From: Bacteroidota bacterium
GTDB lineage: Bacteria > Bacteroidota > Bacteroidia > B-17B0 > Aurantibacillaceae
Assembly: GCA_021156365.1 (NCBI GenBank)
Contig: JAJNDK010000003.1
Location: 62,001 to 126,000, forward strand
Reading direction: 5' to 3'
DNA: 64,000 nucleotides
Part shown: positions 49,720-55,389 of the stretch, in pieces
Position numbering within the stretch: the first letter of the stretch is position 1
Layout of the letters: each line of letters begins with the position of its first letter
The notes under the pieces: generated by a model
Databases searched by the model: none
Told to the model about the DNA's origin: nothing
What the model saw: the letters and a program-made list of their open reading frames with translations, nothing else
Position numbers and translations under genes: made by a program

Positions 49720-49747
49720 AGAGCCGCAGACATATATCCGCGGCTCT
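49720..49747 (-). terminator. Terminator of the SMC-type operon
   Basis: An 8-bp stem (49720-49727 with 49740-49747), 12-nt loop, followed on the minus strand by TTTATTATT. It lies 30 bp after the operon's last stop. Confidence 0.8.
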
Positions 49748-49776: not shown

Positions 49777-52700
49777 CTACGCTTCCACTTCCGTCACAAT
49801 ACTCGGGAAGATCCGTACGTTTCCATCTTCTTCTCTTCTGAACTGGTAGGTGTATTTGTAATGACTTTCCAATCCGCTTTTGTTTGGCAGACCGTTGATC
49901 ATCATAATATTCCTGTTCTTCGCAAATTTCAAAAGCTCTTTCAGGTAATGGGCAGAGATCTGTCCTACCTCGTCGATGATACAATGTACTTTGAAGGCCT
50001 TGGAGCTTCTGTGCGAGGATTCCTTGATGAATACGTGTAACAAAGTGATGTAAATGATCGCTTTTACGAGGATATCCGTTCCGGTACTTCCGATACTGTC
50101 GATCTTGTGTGTCCAGCCGGTCTCGTTCATACCTTCCTTGATGTTGAACTTCAGCTCGAAAAGGTCCTGCAAACGGATCTCTTCCTGCTCCTGCTCCTTG
50201 ATAGACAGACGAAGGTTTTCCAGCAATTTCACTGCACGGTTGTTGATTTCTTTATTCTTACCTCCGGTTGCATAATCGGTATTGAACAATCCTTCTCCGT
50301 AGAATACACCGTGCTCGTCTTTGAACTCCTCGATCTTCTTGAGCATTTTATATACCTTGTTGTCTGATTCTTCCAGCTTGATCTTAATGAACTCGATCAG
50401 CTTGCTCTCCTCGAATTCCGCTTTTTTGAAATCGTCTGCAATGAGCGTGATGATGTGCTGGATCTTTTCCTGTTGCCCGCTCAGTTCTTTCACTTTGCTT
50501 GCGATACTGTCCGTTACCAGACCGATCTGCGTAGCCGTTTCTGCGATCGACAATTCGATCTTGTTCTCATGAATAAAATTGGAAACGTTTTGTGCAAAAC
50601 GCTCGTATTCTGCCTGCGACGCGTCATTCCGGATCATGAAGTTGAAGTGATTGTCCATACGGAACTTACCTGCAAATTCATTTACATAGCGCTGGAAAGC
50701 ACCGTATTCTTCATTGAAATGCGAGTCATTCTTTAAGAGCTGTGTACAGAGGTCCATTACCGAGTAATTGGTTTTCTTCGGCTCTGCACGCTCGATCACA
50801 TCTTCGTATTTGTTGTAAACCGGTGTTTCGCGGAAATTCTTTGTAAAGTAATTGATCCCGTTGTTGAACTCGATCAGCTCTTCATCAAAGCTGCGTTTTT
50901 GTTTACGCAGCTCCATGTTTTTCAGGTTGAATTTACGGTTCGCTTCTTCTAACTGGTTATTCAGCTCCTGCGAGGATTTCATGTATTCCTCTTTTTTCTG
51001 GATCAGGTCCGGCAATTTATCGAAGAGCTCGCGTTTGTCTTTCAGGTAATCGTTTACGATCTGTGAGTATTGTTCGATCTCCTTGATGTCCTCCTGGATC
51101 TGTTTGATCTTTTTGTCTACTTCTTTTACCTGTTTGCTGTCAACACCTTTTGATTTGAAAGAAGTTTCTTTTTCTTCGTTCATTTCTTTTTCCTTGGCAT
51201 CGAAGCTGGCAACGGTCTTGTCCTTTTCGGTTTCGATGTCTTTGATCTCCGCTTCCTGTCTTTCTTTCAGGTCGGCGATACGATCCAAATGATAGGCACG
51301 CAACTGTTCGAACTGCAGGTTGAAGTCATTGAGCATATTGTTTTTCTTCTTATTCAGAATACTCAGCTCTTCTTCTACGAGGTTAAATTTATTGCGGTTT
51401 CCGGATAAGGATGCTTCGATCTCTTCGCTGGCTTTTTGTTTCCAGTCATCGAGTTCCAGCATCAGTTTTTTCTCGCGTTTTTCAGCCAGCTCGAGCGAGT
51501 AGGAGAGAACCTTCACATCTTCTTTCAGCTCTCCCAACTGTTTCCCGTACCGATCGGCAGCAAGCATTTTCTCTTCGTTGTTGCTTACCTGGAATTGGTT
51601 CAATGAATCTTCCAGCTCGCGGATCTGGGCAAGCAGCTCATTTTTTGCTCCCTGGTATTCTTCCAGCGATTTGGAAACGATGTTCACGCTATCCAGTTTC
51701 AGGCTCACACCGTATAAGGAGTTGATTACTTCTTTTTGAACTTCCGGTTCCAGATCGGTACGGAATAAAATATCCTCGTTACAAACTTTCCCGATCGTAT
51801 TGTGCCAGTCTTTGATGTTCCCTTCTAAAAAGCCATACAAGGCGCCATCCTGCACTTCCAGCTTGCCTTCGATCTCTTTGATCTCCGTTTTCTTTTTGAT
51901 GATCTCGTTGTTGACCTTTGTTACCTGGTTAGCCAATGAGCTCTTGATCTTCGCTTCTGTTGCTTCCCATTCTTTTTGTAAGGTCTGGATAAGATTGCTT
52001 TTGATCGCTTTCTCCGAACGGTTCTTATAGGTAACGGCGCGCAATTCGGCAAGCTCCGTTTCGAGCTGTTTGATCTCTGCTTCGTAGAAACGGGTGTTGC
52101 GGATCACTTTTTCTTCGGATTTCAGCTCGTTGAACTCAATTTGTTTGGAAGTGATCTCTGCCGAAGCGTCTGCCAAAGCATCTTCACGGCGTTGTTTCAG
52201 CTCGTTCTCCTTTTTATTGAGCTCGTTTTTAGCTAATAACTGGCGCTCGTTATAATCATTGAAGATCGTGCTGGTCTTTGCATTGATGTTGTTAATATAG
52301 GAACCGCGCTCGTTTTTCAACTGCTCCATTAGGGTAGAATACTTCAGCTCGATGCTGGACACGTTACTTGTAAGCGTTTCGTATTCCTTACGCGCCATGT
52401 TCAGCTCTACCTGCAACTGCTCACGCTGTTTGTTTTTTTCTACTGCATCTTCAATATTCTGCGACTGGTATTCTTTCAGTTTTTTGTTGGCTTCGCGGAT
52501 CGTACGGTCATAATACCCGATCTCTTCGCGGATGTCCTGTTGTTTGCCTTCAATATGTTCTTTTTGCGCATTGTGCTCATTTTGCAAGGTGTCCAGCTCT
52601 TCTTCTTTTTGTTTGGACGCATCACGGATGGACTCGTTCTGCACCTCTGCATATTTCAGACTGCTTCCTAATTTGTCCGCCATTTCGAGCTGCGAGCCTT

Positions 52701-53460
52701 TCAGCATTTTTACCTGGTCGAATTTCTTATCGATCAGTTCGATCAGTTGCTGCGTCTCTTTTTTCAGATAGGTCTCGATATCCGTGTATTTCTCATTGAA
52801 CTGGCGCAGCTGGCGCTCTACCTGCTCCAGCTTGATACTGGTACTTTCGGAAGAAAGTGAGTTGGCAATAAAGTCCTTGATAAAACGGGAGTCGATCGAG
52901 GATTTTGAAGAAAGGAAAACGTTGGTGATCGATTTCGGGATGTTCTGATATTTCTCATTTCCACGAAGGATGTGGAACTTGCTCAGCATTTTATCCGTTT
53001 CGGTTCCATACAGGATGTTACGGTACCGCTCGAAGGTATCGATCTGGTTACTGTAATAGATCCCGAATTTATCGAGTTTTTTTAATACATCACCGATCTT
53101 CAGAGCCTCATCATTTTCGTTAAAGAAGAAATCCGGGTTGTAAGGTGAATCCACAAAACGGAAGTTCAGCTTGTGGTGACGGTAGATGATGACAAAGAAG
53201 TTTTTTTCCTCCGTCGCCACTTCATATACGAGGAATGAGTTTTCGTAACGGAAATAATGCTCTTCAAATGGCTTCTGGGATGCAGAGATCCCCAGACCAC
53301 GGCTGTTGGCGCTGTAGAAGAAAAGGATGGCGCGTTGTAAAGAAGTTTTACCGAAATTGTTCGTCCCCACAAAACAAGTGTTCCCACTCATTTCCACATC
53401 TGCGTATTTGTTCGACGCGATGTTGATCATTACAATCCGGTTTAATATTCTGTGTTCCAT
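49777..53460 (-). CDS. MukB/MksB-like SMC ATPase
   Basis: A 1,227-residue SMC-type protein. The Walker A box is VGTNNFGKTS (31-40) at the N-terminus, the signature-like stretch SIGSTGTD is at 1122-1129, and the Walker B CIIDEVGQ is at about 1160-1167. Long coiled coils run about 190-490 and 600-1020, with a small break near 530-600 (FLEGNIKDWHNTIGKVCNEDILF) that is a candidate hinge. The order ATPase-head, coil, hinge, coil, head is that of SMC proteins, with the heads as in MukB. It is the last of three coupled genes whose first two look like kleisin and KITE subunits. Function is probably DNA loop or chromosome organisation, or plasmid exclusion; see findings. Confidence 0.8.
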   Translation of the reverse strand: MEHRILNRIVMINIASNKYADVEMSGNTCFVGTNNFGKTSLQRAILFFYSANSRGLGISASQKPFEEHYFRYENSFLVYEVATEEKNFFVIIYRHHKLNFRFVDSPYNPDFFFNENDEALKIGDVLKKLDKFGIYYSNQIDTFERYRNILYGTETDKMLSKFHILRGNEKYQNIPKSITNVFLSSKSSIDSRFIKDFIANSLSSESTSIKLEQVERQLRQFNEKYTDIETYLKKETQQLIELIDKKFDQVKMLKGSQLEMADKLGSSLKYAEVQNESIRDASKQKEEELDTLQNEHNAQKEHIEGKQQDIREEIGYYDRTIREANKKLKEYQSQNIEDAVEKNKQREQLQVELNMARKEYETLTSNVSSIELKYSTLMEQLKNERGSYINNINAKTSTIFNDYNERQLLAKNELNKKENELKQRREDALADASAEITSKQIEFNELKSEEKVIRNTRFYEAEIKQLETELAELRAVTYKNRSEKAIKSNLIQTLQKEWEATEAKIKSSLANQVTKVNNEIIKKKTEIKEIEGKLEVQDGALYGFLEGNIKDWHNTIGKVCNEDILFRTDLEPEVQKEVINSLYGVSLKLDSVNIVSKSLEEYQGAKNELLAQIRELEDSLNQFQVSNNEEKMLAADRYGKQLGELKEDVKVLSYSLELAEKREKKLMLELDDWKQKASEEIEASLSGNRNKFNLVEEELSILNKKKNNMLNDFNLQFEQLRAYHLDRIADLKERQEAEIKDIETEKDKTVASFDAKEKEMNEEKETSFKSKGVDSKQVKEVDKKIKQIQEDIKEIEQYSQIVNDYLKDKRELFDKLPDLIQKKEEYMKSSQELNNQLEEANRKFNLKNMELRKQKRSFDEELIEFNNGINYFTKNFRETPVYNKYEDVIERAEPKKTNYSVMDLCTQLLKNDSHFNEEYGAFQRYVNEFAGKFRMDNHFNFMIRNDASQAEYERFAQNVSNFIHENKIELSIAETATQIGLVTDSIASKVKELSGQQEKIQHIITLIADDFKKAEFEESKLIEFIKIKLEESDNKVYKMLKKIEEFKDEHGVFYGEGLFNTDYATGGKNKEINNRAVKLLENLRLSIKEQEQEEIRLQDLFELKFNIKEGMNETGWTHKIDSIGSTGTDILVKAIIYITLLHVFIKESSHRSSKAFKVHCIIDEVGQISAHYLKELLKFAKNRNIMMINGLPNKSGLESHYKYTYQFRREEDGNVRIFPSIVTEVEA

Positions 53461-53490
53461 GTTATGTTATAAAATTTCGTTGCTTAAAAA

Positions 53491-54132
53491 TTAGTTGTAG
53501 ATGATGCCGCCCGCAGGTTCTGTCCCGCTGTTGCCGGTATCTTCGTAGATAGCGATGGAATTTACGATATCCATCAGGTACGTATAGGAATCCAGGACTT
53601 TGTAAGTTTCACTTTCTTCGTCCTCGCGTTCCAGGAAGGAATCACGTGTCATCAGGTCACAGATCTCGCGTACTTTATTGCTCAGTGTTTCCGAACGGTA
53701 GAGCGGGATCTTTTGCAGTTTTTGTTTCAAACGCACATTCGCATTACACTCTTCTGCAATTTCGCTTGGGCGGAAACGGGAACCGATCGTGATCTTGTTA
53801 TCCATGGAAGCGAAGAGATCAATGATGTCGATATATTTTTCGAAGCTCTCTAATTTTTTTTCGATCAGGCTGTTTGCTTCATCGATCTTCGCGAAATAGA
53901 AAAAGTTATTTCCCCGCTCGATATTGTATCTGATCACGTTGAAGTAGGCCTGAAGGTTATCGAAATTCTCCGGGTTATTGATCACATCGTACAGGCGGTT
54001 CATCCCGTCTTTGGTCCCGTTGCTGGAAATGAAATGCCCGCGCGCCATGATCGCAAAGATGTCATGCGTTTGTTTCGGTAGCTTCACATTGGTACTGATA
54101 TTACCTCCGGTATTGTTATTGGTGTTTTCCAT
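53491..54132 (-). CDS. MukE/MksE-like subunit
   Basis: A 213-residue protein with a disordered Asn/Thr/Gly start (1-20), then KQTHDIFAIMARGHFISSNGTKDGMNRLYDVI and NLQAYFNVIRYNIERGNNFFYFAK, which look like the tandem winged-helix pattern of MukE-type KITE proteins (a G-FIS start, and a length-matched second helix). Acidic C-terminus. Location between the kleisin-like and SMC-like genes supports the call (12 bp from the first, 30 bp to the second). Sequence similarity is too low for certainty by eye. Confidence 0.65.
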   Translation of the reverse strand: MENTNNNTGGNISTNVKLPKQTHDIFAIMARGHFISSNGTKDGMNRLYDVINNPENFDNLQAYFNVIRYNIERGNNFFYFAKIDEANSLIEKKLESFEKYIDIIDLFASMDNKITIGSRFRPSEIAEECNANVRLKQKLQKIPLYRSETLSNKVREICDLMTRDSFLEREDEESETYKVLDSYTYLMDIVNSIAIYEDTGNSGTEPAGGIIYN

Positions 54133-54144
54133 TTCGTATCGGTA

Positions 54145-55389
54145 TTAAGCGGTTGCTTTTTTGGTCTCTTTTTTCTTTGGTTCTTTTTTCGGCAGGATGA
54201 TCGTGTATCCCAGACGTTTTTTTATTTCATTCACTTCGTAATCGTGATACCCCAATCGGTATTTGAATTCGAAATTCTTTTCGTATTCCAGGACTATTTC
54301 CACGAACAAGGTAATGCGCTCTTCAAACGTAATGGTGCCCACTGCTTTCGGAAATTTGTAGGCAACCAAAAATTCAAATAAATTATGTTTCTGTTGTGAT
54401 AAAAATTTATCTACCAGCGCGGAAACATCCAATCGCAGCGAATTCTCTATTTGTACATCCTTGAAATTCCCGGCCATCTTGTCTGCCATACGGCGTGCCA
54501 TCAGGCGGGTGATCTTGTATTTTTCGGCTACACGTCCGCAGAGCATATACCCGTCATCCGTATACAGGAAATCGATCGGGATCTTGGTACGTGGTGTTTT
54601 GTGATTGTTGAAACCGATCGGGTTGATAAGCTGCACTACTTCCCTGAAATTGGTCCGGTAATGCAATTCCCCGCGATCTTTCACCTCTTTCAGCTGCTGC
54701 ACTTTTTTGTACACATCTAACTGGAACTGGATCTTGTTGATGTAATCCGTAATGTCGGTCTGGATCTCGATAAGGAAATCGAGGTTTTCGATCAGTCCGG
54801 ATTTCAGTGAGGCAACAATGGAATACAATTCAAGATCGTTGGTGATATTGAAAAGCAAACGTGTTTCTTCGATCACATCTTCTGCTTTCCGGATGAACTC
54901 GATGATCGTATCACGTTTGGTACGGTAATCATCGAGCTTTTGCAGCTTGATTCGGTAATTACTTTCGTTCTTGTAGGTATCATCCACATTTTTCTGCAGC
55001 TTGATGATCTCGCGTGTGATAGCGGTATTGATACGTTTCAGGTATTTTTTGATCGAGCGCAGGAAGCGGTTCTCTTTGCCTTCCGAGTAGTATTTGATGT
55101 GACGGTTCAGCTCATTGAGGTAATCGCTGATGAAGCCCGGCGTTACTTCTCCGATCTCCATAAAGTCCTCGAACATGGCGATCACCGAATCGTTCACACT
55201 CACAATATTCTGATATTCGTACAATACCTCGTAGCTGATCAGCTTCTGATACTGTTCCGGTGTAATATCGTCCCTGCTCAACAGTTCAGTCACAGTAATG
55301 CTGTCCCGGTTACCAAAAAGGTACTCGATCACATTACGATTGTAATAAAGCTGAGTTAATAATTCTTTTACATTCAACTGTAAACCCAT
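54145..55389 (-). CDS. MukF/MksF-like kleisin subunit
   Basis: A 414-residue protein, the first gene of the operon. It starts with a winged-helix-like region (ELLTQLYYNRNVIEYLFGNRDSITVTELLSRDD), continues with long helices (about 90-240), and ends with a second winged-helix-like region (GRVAEKYKITRLMARRMADKM) and a Lys-rich tail (PKKEPKKKETKKATA). Kleisins of the MukF class bridge the SMC heads through N- and C-terminal winged helices joined by a helical middle. The assignment is by operon order and shape. The 5' gap of about 300 bp holds a repeat and no gene. Confidence 0.6.
   Translation of the reverse strand: MGLQLNVKELLTQLYYNRNVIEYLFGNRDSITVTELLSRDDITPEQYQKLISYEVLYEYQNIVSVNDSVIAMFEDFMEIGEVTPGFISDYLNELNRHIKYYSEGKENRFLRSIKKYLKRINTAITREIIKLQKNVDDTYKNESNYRIKLQKLDDYRTKRDTIIEFIRKAEDVIEETRLLFNITNDLELYSIVASLKSGLIENLDFLIEIQTDITDYINKIQFQLDVYKKVQQLKEVKDRGELHYRTNFREVVQLINPIGFNNHKTPRTKIPIDFLYTDDGYMLCGRVAEKYKITRLMARRMADKMAGNFKDVQIENSLRLDVSALVDKFLSQQKHNLFEFLVAYKFPKAVGTITFEERITLFVEIVLEYEKNFEFKYRLGYHDYEVNEIKKRLGYTIILPKKEPKKKETKKATA

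Follow-up and report, generated by a model that had tools for sequence, protein, structure and literature searches.

A nuclease-free operon of the MukBEF/MksBEF class that probably serves an order of uncultured Bacteroidia as its core chromosome organiser

What does a kleisin-KITE-SMC operon do in a Bacteroidota genome when no nuclease gene stands beside it? The question is raised by three minus-strand genes at positions 49,777 to 55,389 of a 64,000-nucleotide stretch of contig JAJNDK010000003.1 (assembly GCA_021156365.1), the whole of which is called the window below. A preliminary description of the sequence had offered two readings of these genes, as encoding either a divergent complex for chromosome organisation or an orphaned Wadjet relative. 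The analysis supports both halves as one history, the chromosome role being its conditional part. We consider it probable that the genes encode a Wadjet-derived complex of the MukBEF/MksBEF class with a housekeeping function, in which it would serve an order of uncultured Bacteroidia as the only SMC-kleisin complex that organises the chromosome. The features of the operon are as follows.

54145..55389, minus strand: mksF-like gene for a kleisin of 414 amino acids, with an N-terminal winged-helix region, a long helical middle and a C-terminal winged-helix-like region; MukF matches in Foldseek
53491..54132, minus strand: mksE-like gene for a KITE subunit of 213 amino acids; Pfam PF21980 (MksE), 1.8e-31
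49777..53460, minus strand: mksB-like gene for an SMC-type ATPase of 1,227 amino acids; Pfam PF12128 (DUF3584), 2.7e-69
53341..53367, minus strand: Walker A of MksB, residues 32-40, GTNNFGKTS; G32, G37 and K38 conserved without exception in 25 aligned rows
50074..50097, minus strand: ABC signature region of MksB, residues 1122-1129, SIGSTGTD; G1124, S1125, G1127, T1128 and D1129 invariant in 25 aligned rows
49960..49980, minus strand: Walker B motif IIDEVGQ (residues 1161-1167 of MksB); D1163 and E1164, the latter presumed to be the catalytic glutamate, do not vary among 25 aligned rows
49720..49747, minus strand: terminator-like hairpin of 12 pairs (7 G-C) with a T-rich tail, a pattern match 29 nucleotides 3' of mksB

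The three open reading frames (ORFs) lie where the preliminary description had placed them, with the same coordinates, the same lengths (414, 213 and 1,227 amino acids) and the same gaps of 12 nucleotides between mksF and mksE (54133-54144) and 30 nucleotides between mksE and mksB (53461-53490). The 213-residue protein matched the Pfam MksE family with 110 bits (cut-off 27), and the 414-residue protein had no Pfam match above cut-off. The NCBIfam models gave nothing above their cut-offs for any of the three proteins, and one irrelevant match below cut-off for the KITE protein. From the PADLOC library, which has no cut-offs, JetB1 matched the KITE protein with an E of 0.016, and no JetA match was found in the proteins of the trio. 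AlphaFold models of MksE and MksF were built from alignments of 35 and 34 sequences, respectively. For the MksE model, with a predicted local distance difference test score (pLDDT) of 84.0, the top 16 Foldseek matches were MukE/JetB-length chains of MukE, MukEF, MukBEF or JetABC entries, and the alignment with 3euh_E in VIA had a Z of 10.6 over 163 residues with a root-mean-square deviation (rmsd) of 3.9. The MksF model had a pLDDT of 74.4 and a predicted template modelling score (pTM) of 0.41; its top nine Foldseek matches in the PDB were MukF-length chains of MukF, MukEF or MukBEF entries, with E from 2.1e-4 to 3.5e-2. In VIA, seven of the eight Muk chains aligned loosely with this model from its first 8 residues on, over 216-252 residues (rmsd 5.5-11.6), and the other 42 rows started at residue 74 or later and covered helices, except 7rdr_A, which started before residue 70. 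Residues 322-400 of MksF were modelled as helices and two strands with a pLDDT of about 73-81. As judged from the predicted folds, the 414-residue protein is confirmed as a MukF-type kleisin and the 213-residue protein as a MukE-type KITE subunit, the best structural matches of the two being MukF and MukE/JetB. Together with a MukB-like SMC protein, these folds uphold the kleisin-KITE-SMC class proposed at the outset.

The MukB-like character of the large protein was indicated by its match to DUF3584 (234 bits), a family described in PADLOC as MukB-like; the PADLOC models AriA (5.7e-8, residues 19-303) and JetC1 (E 0.028) also matched it. The catalytic motifs lie at opposite ends of the protein, Walker A at residues 32-40 and the signature and Walker B at residues 1122-1129 and 1161-1167, and the strings GTNNFGKTS, SIGSTGTD and IIDEVGQ that had been read earlier are all present in conserved columns. 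The claim that the Walker A box (FGKTS) is unusual had to be withdrawn. The P-loop consensus is GxxxxGK[ST], and GTNNFGKT fits it, so that the MksB motif is a normal one. What stands between G and GK differs by lineage, the residues being NNF, NNY, NNM or NNS in the branch of the window and QGV or QGA in the other. The long middle part (residues 176-816) contains a single proline, at 572, is rich in E, K, Q, R and L, and has a better conserved patch at about 521-600, a pattern as expected of coiled-coil arms with a hinge. When the gene was compared with that of a same-genus relative (genome G590, locus L099), the proportions of amino-acid-changing and silent differences (pN and pS) were 0.038 and 0.762; no ratio is quoted because the silent sites are saturated. 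Judging from amino-acid-changing differences that are far rarer than silent ones, MksB is under strong purifying selection.

The distribution of the trio was examined in the order of the window, which in this genome collection consists of 87 genomes of one family, many of them drafts. A match to the window's MksB was obtained in 83 of the 87 genomes, including all 62 good ones (completeness of 90% or more, contamination of 5% or less), and the four genomes without a match are 58, 73, 73 and 76% complete. The genome of the window itself (5.31 Mb in 23 contigs, 98.67% complete) has one match. The MksB copies within the order are 57-94% identical over most of their length, and in a class sample of 295 Bacteroidia, all 10 genomes of the window's family carry MksB. 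Among named genome records, the best 80 of 506 relatives were compared, and 65 of these were of the window's own type (MksB identity of at least 57%), with no cultured strain evident among the 65. Conserved neighbours were compared in 59 own-type loci with flanking sequence, 51 of them distinct. In 50 of the 51, MksF and MksE accompanied MksB in one locus (the exception is L131), with other genes between members of the trio in two lineages. No other family was found in more than 25 of the 51 distinct loci, and the search for a conserved fourth gene thus ended without a candidate. The commonest other family, an upstream glycosyltransferase (25/51), and an ORF of 331-354 amino acids between mksE and mksB (11/51) were considered and rejected as the fourth gene, both being absent from the window. 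The one such ORF that was tested had no Pfam match and a signal-peptide-like start (L102:4923-5924 and 10 other loci have this ORF). A Fic-domain gene lies between mksF and mksE in L085:12408-13757 and L117:3941-5290, two loci that are the same genome. The MksFEB trio is a core gene set of the order; its presence in all the good genomes is unlike the patchy occurrence of defence genes.

Wadjet systems carry a fourth gene, jetD, and the own-type loci were searched for it with a profile built from 13 JetD-like proteins. As far as the contigs reach, the profile found no JetD-like gene in the window, where the preliminary description had also seen none beside the operon, or in a further 83 own-type loci, the total, window included, amounting to 69 distinct ones; 65 of the 83 came from the best 80 of the 506 relatives and 18 were further stretches. 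At least 1 kb downstream of mksB was available for 73 of the 83 (57 from the first group, 16 from the second). In the genome of the window, no match to JetD_C over the cut-off was obtained (best E 0.15), and none to DUF7281 in a search that was not fully sensitive. The latter search detected DUF7281 in one of the 87 genomes of the order and missed such genes in genomes G421 and G577, so that its negatives are soft.

The more distant loci were different, in that 14 of 25 had a JetD-like gene of about 290 residues (L089-L095, L153, L163, L167, L170, L171, L226 and L227, the gene being partial in L093). The 11 without it were from Sporocytophaga (L150, L168), Parachryseolinea (L151), Chryseosolibacter (L152, L172), Dawidia (L173) and Phocaeicola/Bacteroides (L175-L178), besides L088, and a Pfam search with 8 downstream ORFs of 7 of these 11 named no JetD-like nuclease. 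DUF7281 is the family matched by the JetD-like proteins, which also show weak matches to JetD_C and the PADLOC model JetD1; they have invariant E and GDxD residues, which we take to be a Toprim site. Their gene directly follows mksB, often overlapping it, in 12 of 13 aligned cases, and is 889 nucleotides away in L090. DUF7281-type proteins of 281-302 amino acids are encoded after mksB in L226:12549-13403, L089:7336-8208, L095:7448-8302, L153:9671-10516 and others, and the SMC and KITE proteins of the L089 operon are barely scored by PADLOC. These DUF7281-bearing Wadjet-like operons are probably a diverged Wadjet subtype.

Phylogenetic trees were used to place the own-type loci among these systems. 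The MksB tree contained 33 proteins, including 12 own-type rows; the split-frame loci L163, L167, L168 and L095 were left out, and L093 was given no JetD state because its contig ends, although the profile detects part of a JetD-like frame in it. All 12 own-type rows formed one clade (SH-aLRT 100), which the deepest split left together with the Cytophagales rows, some with and some without JetD, and the tree of the 13 JetD-like proteins had the same deepest split (100/99). A tree of the head domain was rooted on eight Wadjet-type SMC proteins, the outgroup branches being long. In this tree, the own-type rows fell into one clade (99/100) with Cytophagales rows and L171, and the root is therefore not on the own-type branch. 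From these positions, the JetD-like gene seems ancestral to the set, which suggests that the lineage of the window lost it. The outgroup came from a phylum-wide MksE search, which matched 42 of 296 genomes. Twelve of its loci (eight from the class) were compared; where the stretch includes the SMC gene, this codes for about 1,056-1,171 amino acids, with one frame of 887, and L050 among them has JetC and JetD by PADLOC. A phmmer search with the three proteins of the window found nothing in the 12 loci. From their layout these appear to be of the Wadjet type, and they were set aside as relatives.

The order also contains a nuclease-bearing version. Three genomes (G421, G577 and G625) have a second operon, 30-31% identical, beside a JetD-like gene. 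The second MksB of G577 is 97.4% identical to the MksB of G487, a genome of another family, which indicates horizontal transfer of this operon. The second mksB of G421 is broken into two frames. The nuclease-bearing version is thus mobile and the version of the window is core. These observations bear on the explanation that the trio is an orphan Wadjet still acting in defence, which would either recruit an unlinked nuclease or, as has been proposed for Smc5/6, trap or compact foreign circular DNA and leave it uncut. The JetD-like gene in 14 of the 25 more distant loci favours this explanation, as does the MksBEFG system of C. glutamicum, which is described in parts of PMC10123090 as acting on plasmids and not on the chromosome. 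However, defence genes are patchy and the trio is in 62 of 62 good genomes, the version that moves between families is the nuclease-bearing one, found in three genomes of the order, and the window's own genome gave no JetD_C match over the cut-off and no DUF7281 match, within the sensitivity noted above. We therefore regard continued service in defence as unlikely.

To see whether the order has another chromosome organiser, Smc-ScpAB was searched for. ScpA was found in none of the 10 genomes of the window's family in the class sample, the window's own genome included, and ScpB was not found in the own genome. ScpB was detected in one of the 87 genomes of the order (G577), as a partial frame of 135 amino acids at a contig end, a match that is possibly contamination. 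A canonical Smc was not detected in the own genome, where none of 19 SMC_N matches lies in an open frame of more than 943 amino acids. Six of these matches were checked and proved to be RecF, RecN, two ABC transporters, one PtuA-like protein (below cut-off) and one protein without a family match at that threshold. The PtuA-like ATPase (L008:1219-2448, 409 amino acids, NCBIfam NF041760 below cut-off) lies elsewhere in the genome and is, from its sequence, a possible defence gene. The status of Smc-ScpAB in the order is "not detected", which is short of proof of absence.

The trio might accordingly be an accessory condensin beside a divergent Smc-ScpAB missed by the models, like the MksBEF that accompanies Smc in Pseudomonas aeruginosa. 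ScpA is also present in all nine Cytophagales-type genomes that have a relative of the complex, profile models give false negatives, and the partial ScpB of one order genome could be counted in the same sense. On the other side, the searches gave ScpB in 1 of 87 genomes, ScpA in 0 of 10 and no SMC_N match in an open frame of more than 943 amino acids in the own genome, and they would need to have overlooked the motor as well as both subunits. An accessory role beside a hidden Smc-ScpAB therefore appears quite improbable. A DNA-repair or other non-condensin coiled-coil ATPase of the Rad50/SbcC type with two unrelated winged-helix neighbours is already disfavoured and scarcely credible, since the best match of the large protein is DUF3584 with 234 bits, its partners have MukE and MukF folds and the three genes occur together in 50 of 51 distinct own-type loci, while the AriA match and a weak AAA_15 match of the head (7.6e-6, below cut-off) may reflect only the shared ABC-ATPase fold.

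The reading that we prefer, a housekeeping complex that would organise the chromosome, is suggested by three properties: the MukBEF/MksBEF-type parts argue for a loop extruder, the core distribution for a housekeeping function, and the lack of a nuclease for an activity without cutting. We infer the assembly of the complex, loop extrusion, the chromosome role and the direction of nuclease loss as follows. Two MksB ATPases would be joined at the hinge and bridged by the MksF kleisin, to which MksE dimers would be bound, and these units may be paired through the N-terminal domains of MksF, as is the case in MukBEF and JetABC. By binding and hydrolysing ATP in cycles, the complex would form larger and larger DNA loops along the chromosome, which would compact it and help in the separation of sister chromosomes. 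Without a JetD/MksG nuclease, loop extrusion would not end in DNA cutting. The operon would have originated as a Wadjet-like operon of four genes, from which the nuclease gene was then lost.

Several observations weigh against this reading. The MksF model is of middling confidence, and unrelated helical bundles match its helical part at equal Z (13-14). The comparison of profiles with MukF, MukE and MukB was weak when hhalign was used with single E. coli sequences (probability 0.1, 1.8 and 6.5%, respectively); the weak MukB alignment pairs Walker B with Walker B, and single JetC sequences gave likewise weak results. Because sequence similarity to E. coli Muk proteins is weak, the relationship rests on the Pfam profiles and the folds. 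The MksB tree needs about five changes of the JetD label, and the other deep ingroup forks of the rooted head-domain tree lack resolution. In C. glutamicum, the related MksB had no effect on chromosome organisation according to the sections of PMC10123090 consulted, in a system that keeps its nuclease. The models of ScpA and ScpB can miss genomes, and the nine Cytophagales-type genomes mentioned above keep ScpA alongside a relative of MksBEF. Moreover, ScpA was matched in 57 of the 295 sampled Bacteroidia and not in the other 238, so that a missing Smc-ScpAB is no peculiarity of the order and is not in itself a reason to expect MksBEF. A full-length relative of the window's MksB was present in 17 of the 295, of which 10 are of the window's family and none is among the 57 with ScpA. 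A simple replacement of Smc-ScpAB in the order is weakened as an explanation by the 238 genomes, since the loss may be older, and the proposal that all ScpA-less Bacteroidia use MksBEF was rejected on the 17 genomes. Frames of 881-944 amino acids with partial MukB-like matches were seen in eight genomes from four families of the class (L197, L199-L205), and are possibly another short MukB-like system by sequence; in L072 and L073, which came from similar partial matches, an ORF of about 400 amino acids follows.

A conversion of this kind may have been repeated. Four loci (L175-L178, from Phocaeicola plebeius DSM 17135 and metagenome-assembled genomes of Phocaeicola and Bacteroides) have an F-E-B trio without JetD, about 30% identical to that of the window, and no ScpA match was found in these four genomes, whose completeness is not known here. 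A Hi-C study of a Bacteroides to which these genomes are related noted, in the portion available to us, a weak arm-alignment signal and no known condensin (PMC10197239). The trio of L175-L178 is a candidate for the missing Bacteroides condensin. That the change from Wadjet to housekeeping condensin by nuclease loss took place repeatedly in Bacteroidota, at the base of the order and in Bacteroides/Phocaeicola, is a tentative proposal, which we hold to be less likely than not.

The G+C content of the operon, 0.435, is the same as that of the window. One flank has a TIGR00093 pseudouridine synthase and a Na+/H+ exchanger, and the other has DUF5694 and DUF2238 proteins. Nine terminator-like sites were found in the region (mean of 7.5 in shuffled sequences), the hairpin 3' of mksB having the most pairs, and the operon seems to end there, without a fourth gene. 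Six promoter-like sites in the region were below the shuffle mean of 10.4. The flanks of the same-genus relative in L099 are partly syntenic with the window; the trio is 93-95% identical between the two and five common neighbouring ORFs are 66-86% identical. This relative has, at L099:2586-3755, a DUF4143/AAA_14 gene that separates mksF from the pseudouridine synthase. It is absent from the window and is likely a recent insertion in L099.

The literature searches, with subscription journals mostly outside their scope, found nothing that names this case and no mention of DUF7281. MksB was paired with Bacteroidetes in PMC10197239 and with Bacteroidota in PMC12153180, the latter of which, in the text seen, concerns other SMC groups. 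Automatic annotation likely misses the complex, since NCBIfam has no match for the SMC protein or the kleisin and PADLOC offers AriA at 5.7e-8 and Jet models at E 0.016-0.028.

Among the known systems, MksBEF of Pseudomonas aeruginosa (without MksG) is likewise a kleisin-KITE-SMC trio without a nuclease. However, P. aeruginosa also has an SMC-family condensin, as far as the excerpts of PMC7485682 go, whereas the searches detected no Smc-ScpAB in the order of the window, apart from the partial ScpB of G577, and the trio is a core feature throughout that order. MukBEF of E. coli shares with the window the MukF and MukE folds, the gene order F-E-B and the lack of a nuclease; it differs in the length of MukB (1,486 amino acids, compared with 1,227 for MksB), in the weak profile similarity and in the phylum. 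Wadjet (JetABCD/MksBEFG) has the JetB-like fold of MksE (8as8_C) and an SMC protein of the DUF3584 family in common with the window. Unlike Wadjet, the trio has no adjacent nuclease gene, is core and not patchy, and is matched by the PADLOC Jet models only at E 0.016-0.028. The four-gene Wadjet-like systems of Bacteroidota (L089, L091, L094, L153, L171 and others) have the same F-E-B order and an MksB that is 26-40% identical over its full length, but they carry the DUF7281-type nuclease gene for 281-302 amino acids and are found in three genomes of the order in addition to the own-type operon, and they are shared between families. According to a review, MukBEF apparently replaced Smc-ScpAB in the ancestor of the enterobacteria, and the case of the window would be another instance of the replacement type, in Bacteroidota and parallel to it. 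A possible descent of MukBEF and MksBEF from Wadjet defence systems is put forward in a review that calls their origin unresolved (PMC10586767). One order here shows both ends, a core trio free of nuclease and a mobile cousin that bears one in three genomes, and these provide a natural series in which to study how a loop extruder that cuts DNA becomes one that organises the chromosome. The comparison also bears on which chromosome organiser serves the Bacteroidia without Smc-ScpAB, a question raised in the passages of PMC10197239 cited above.

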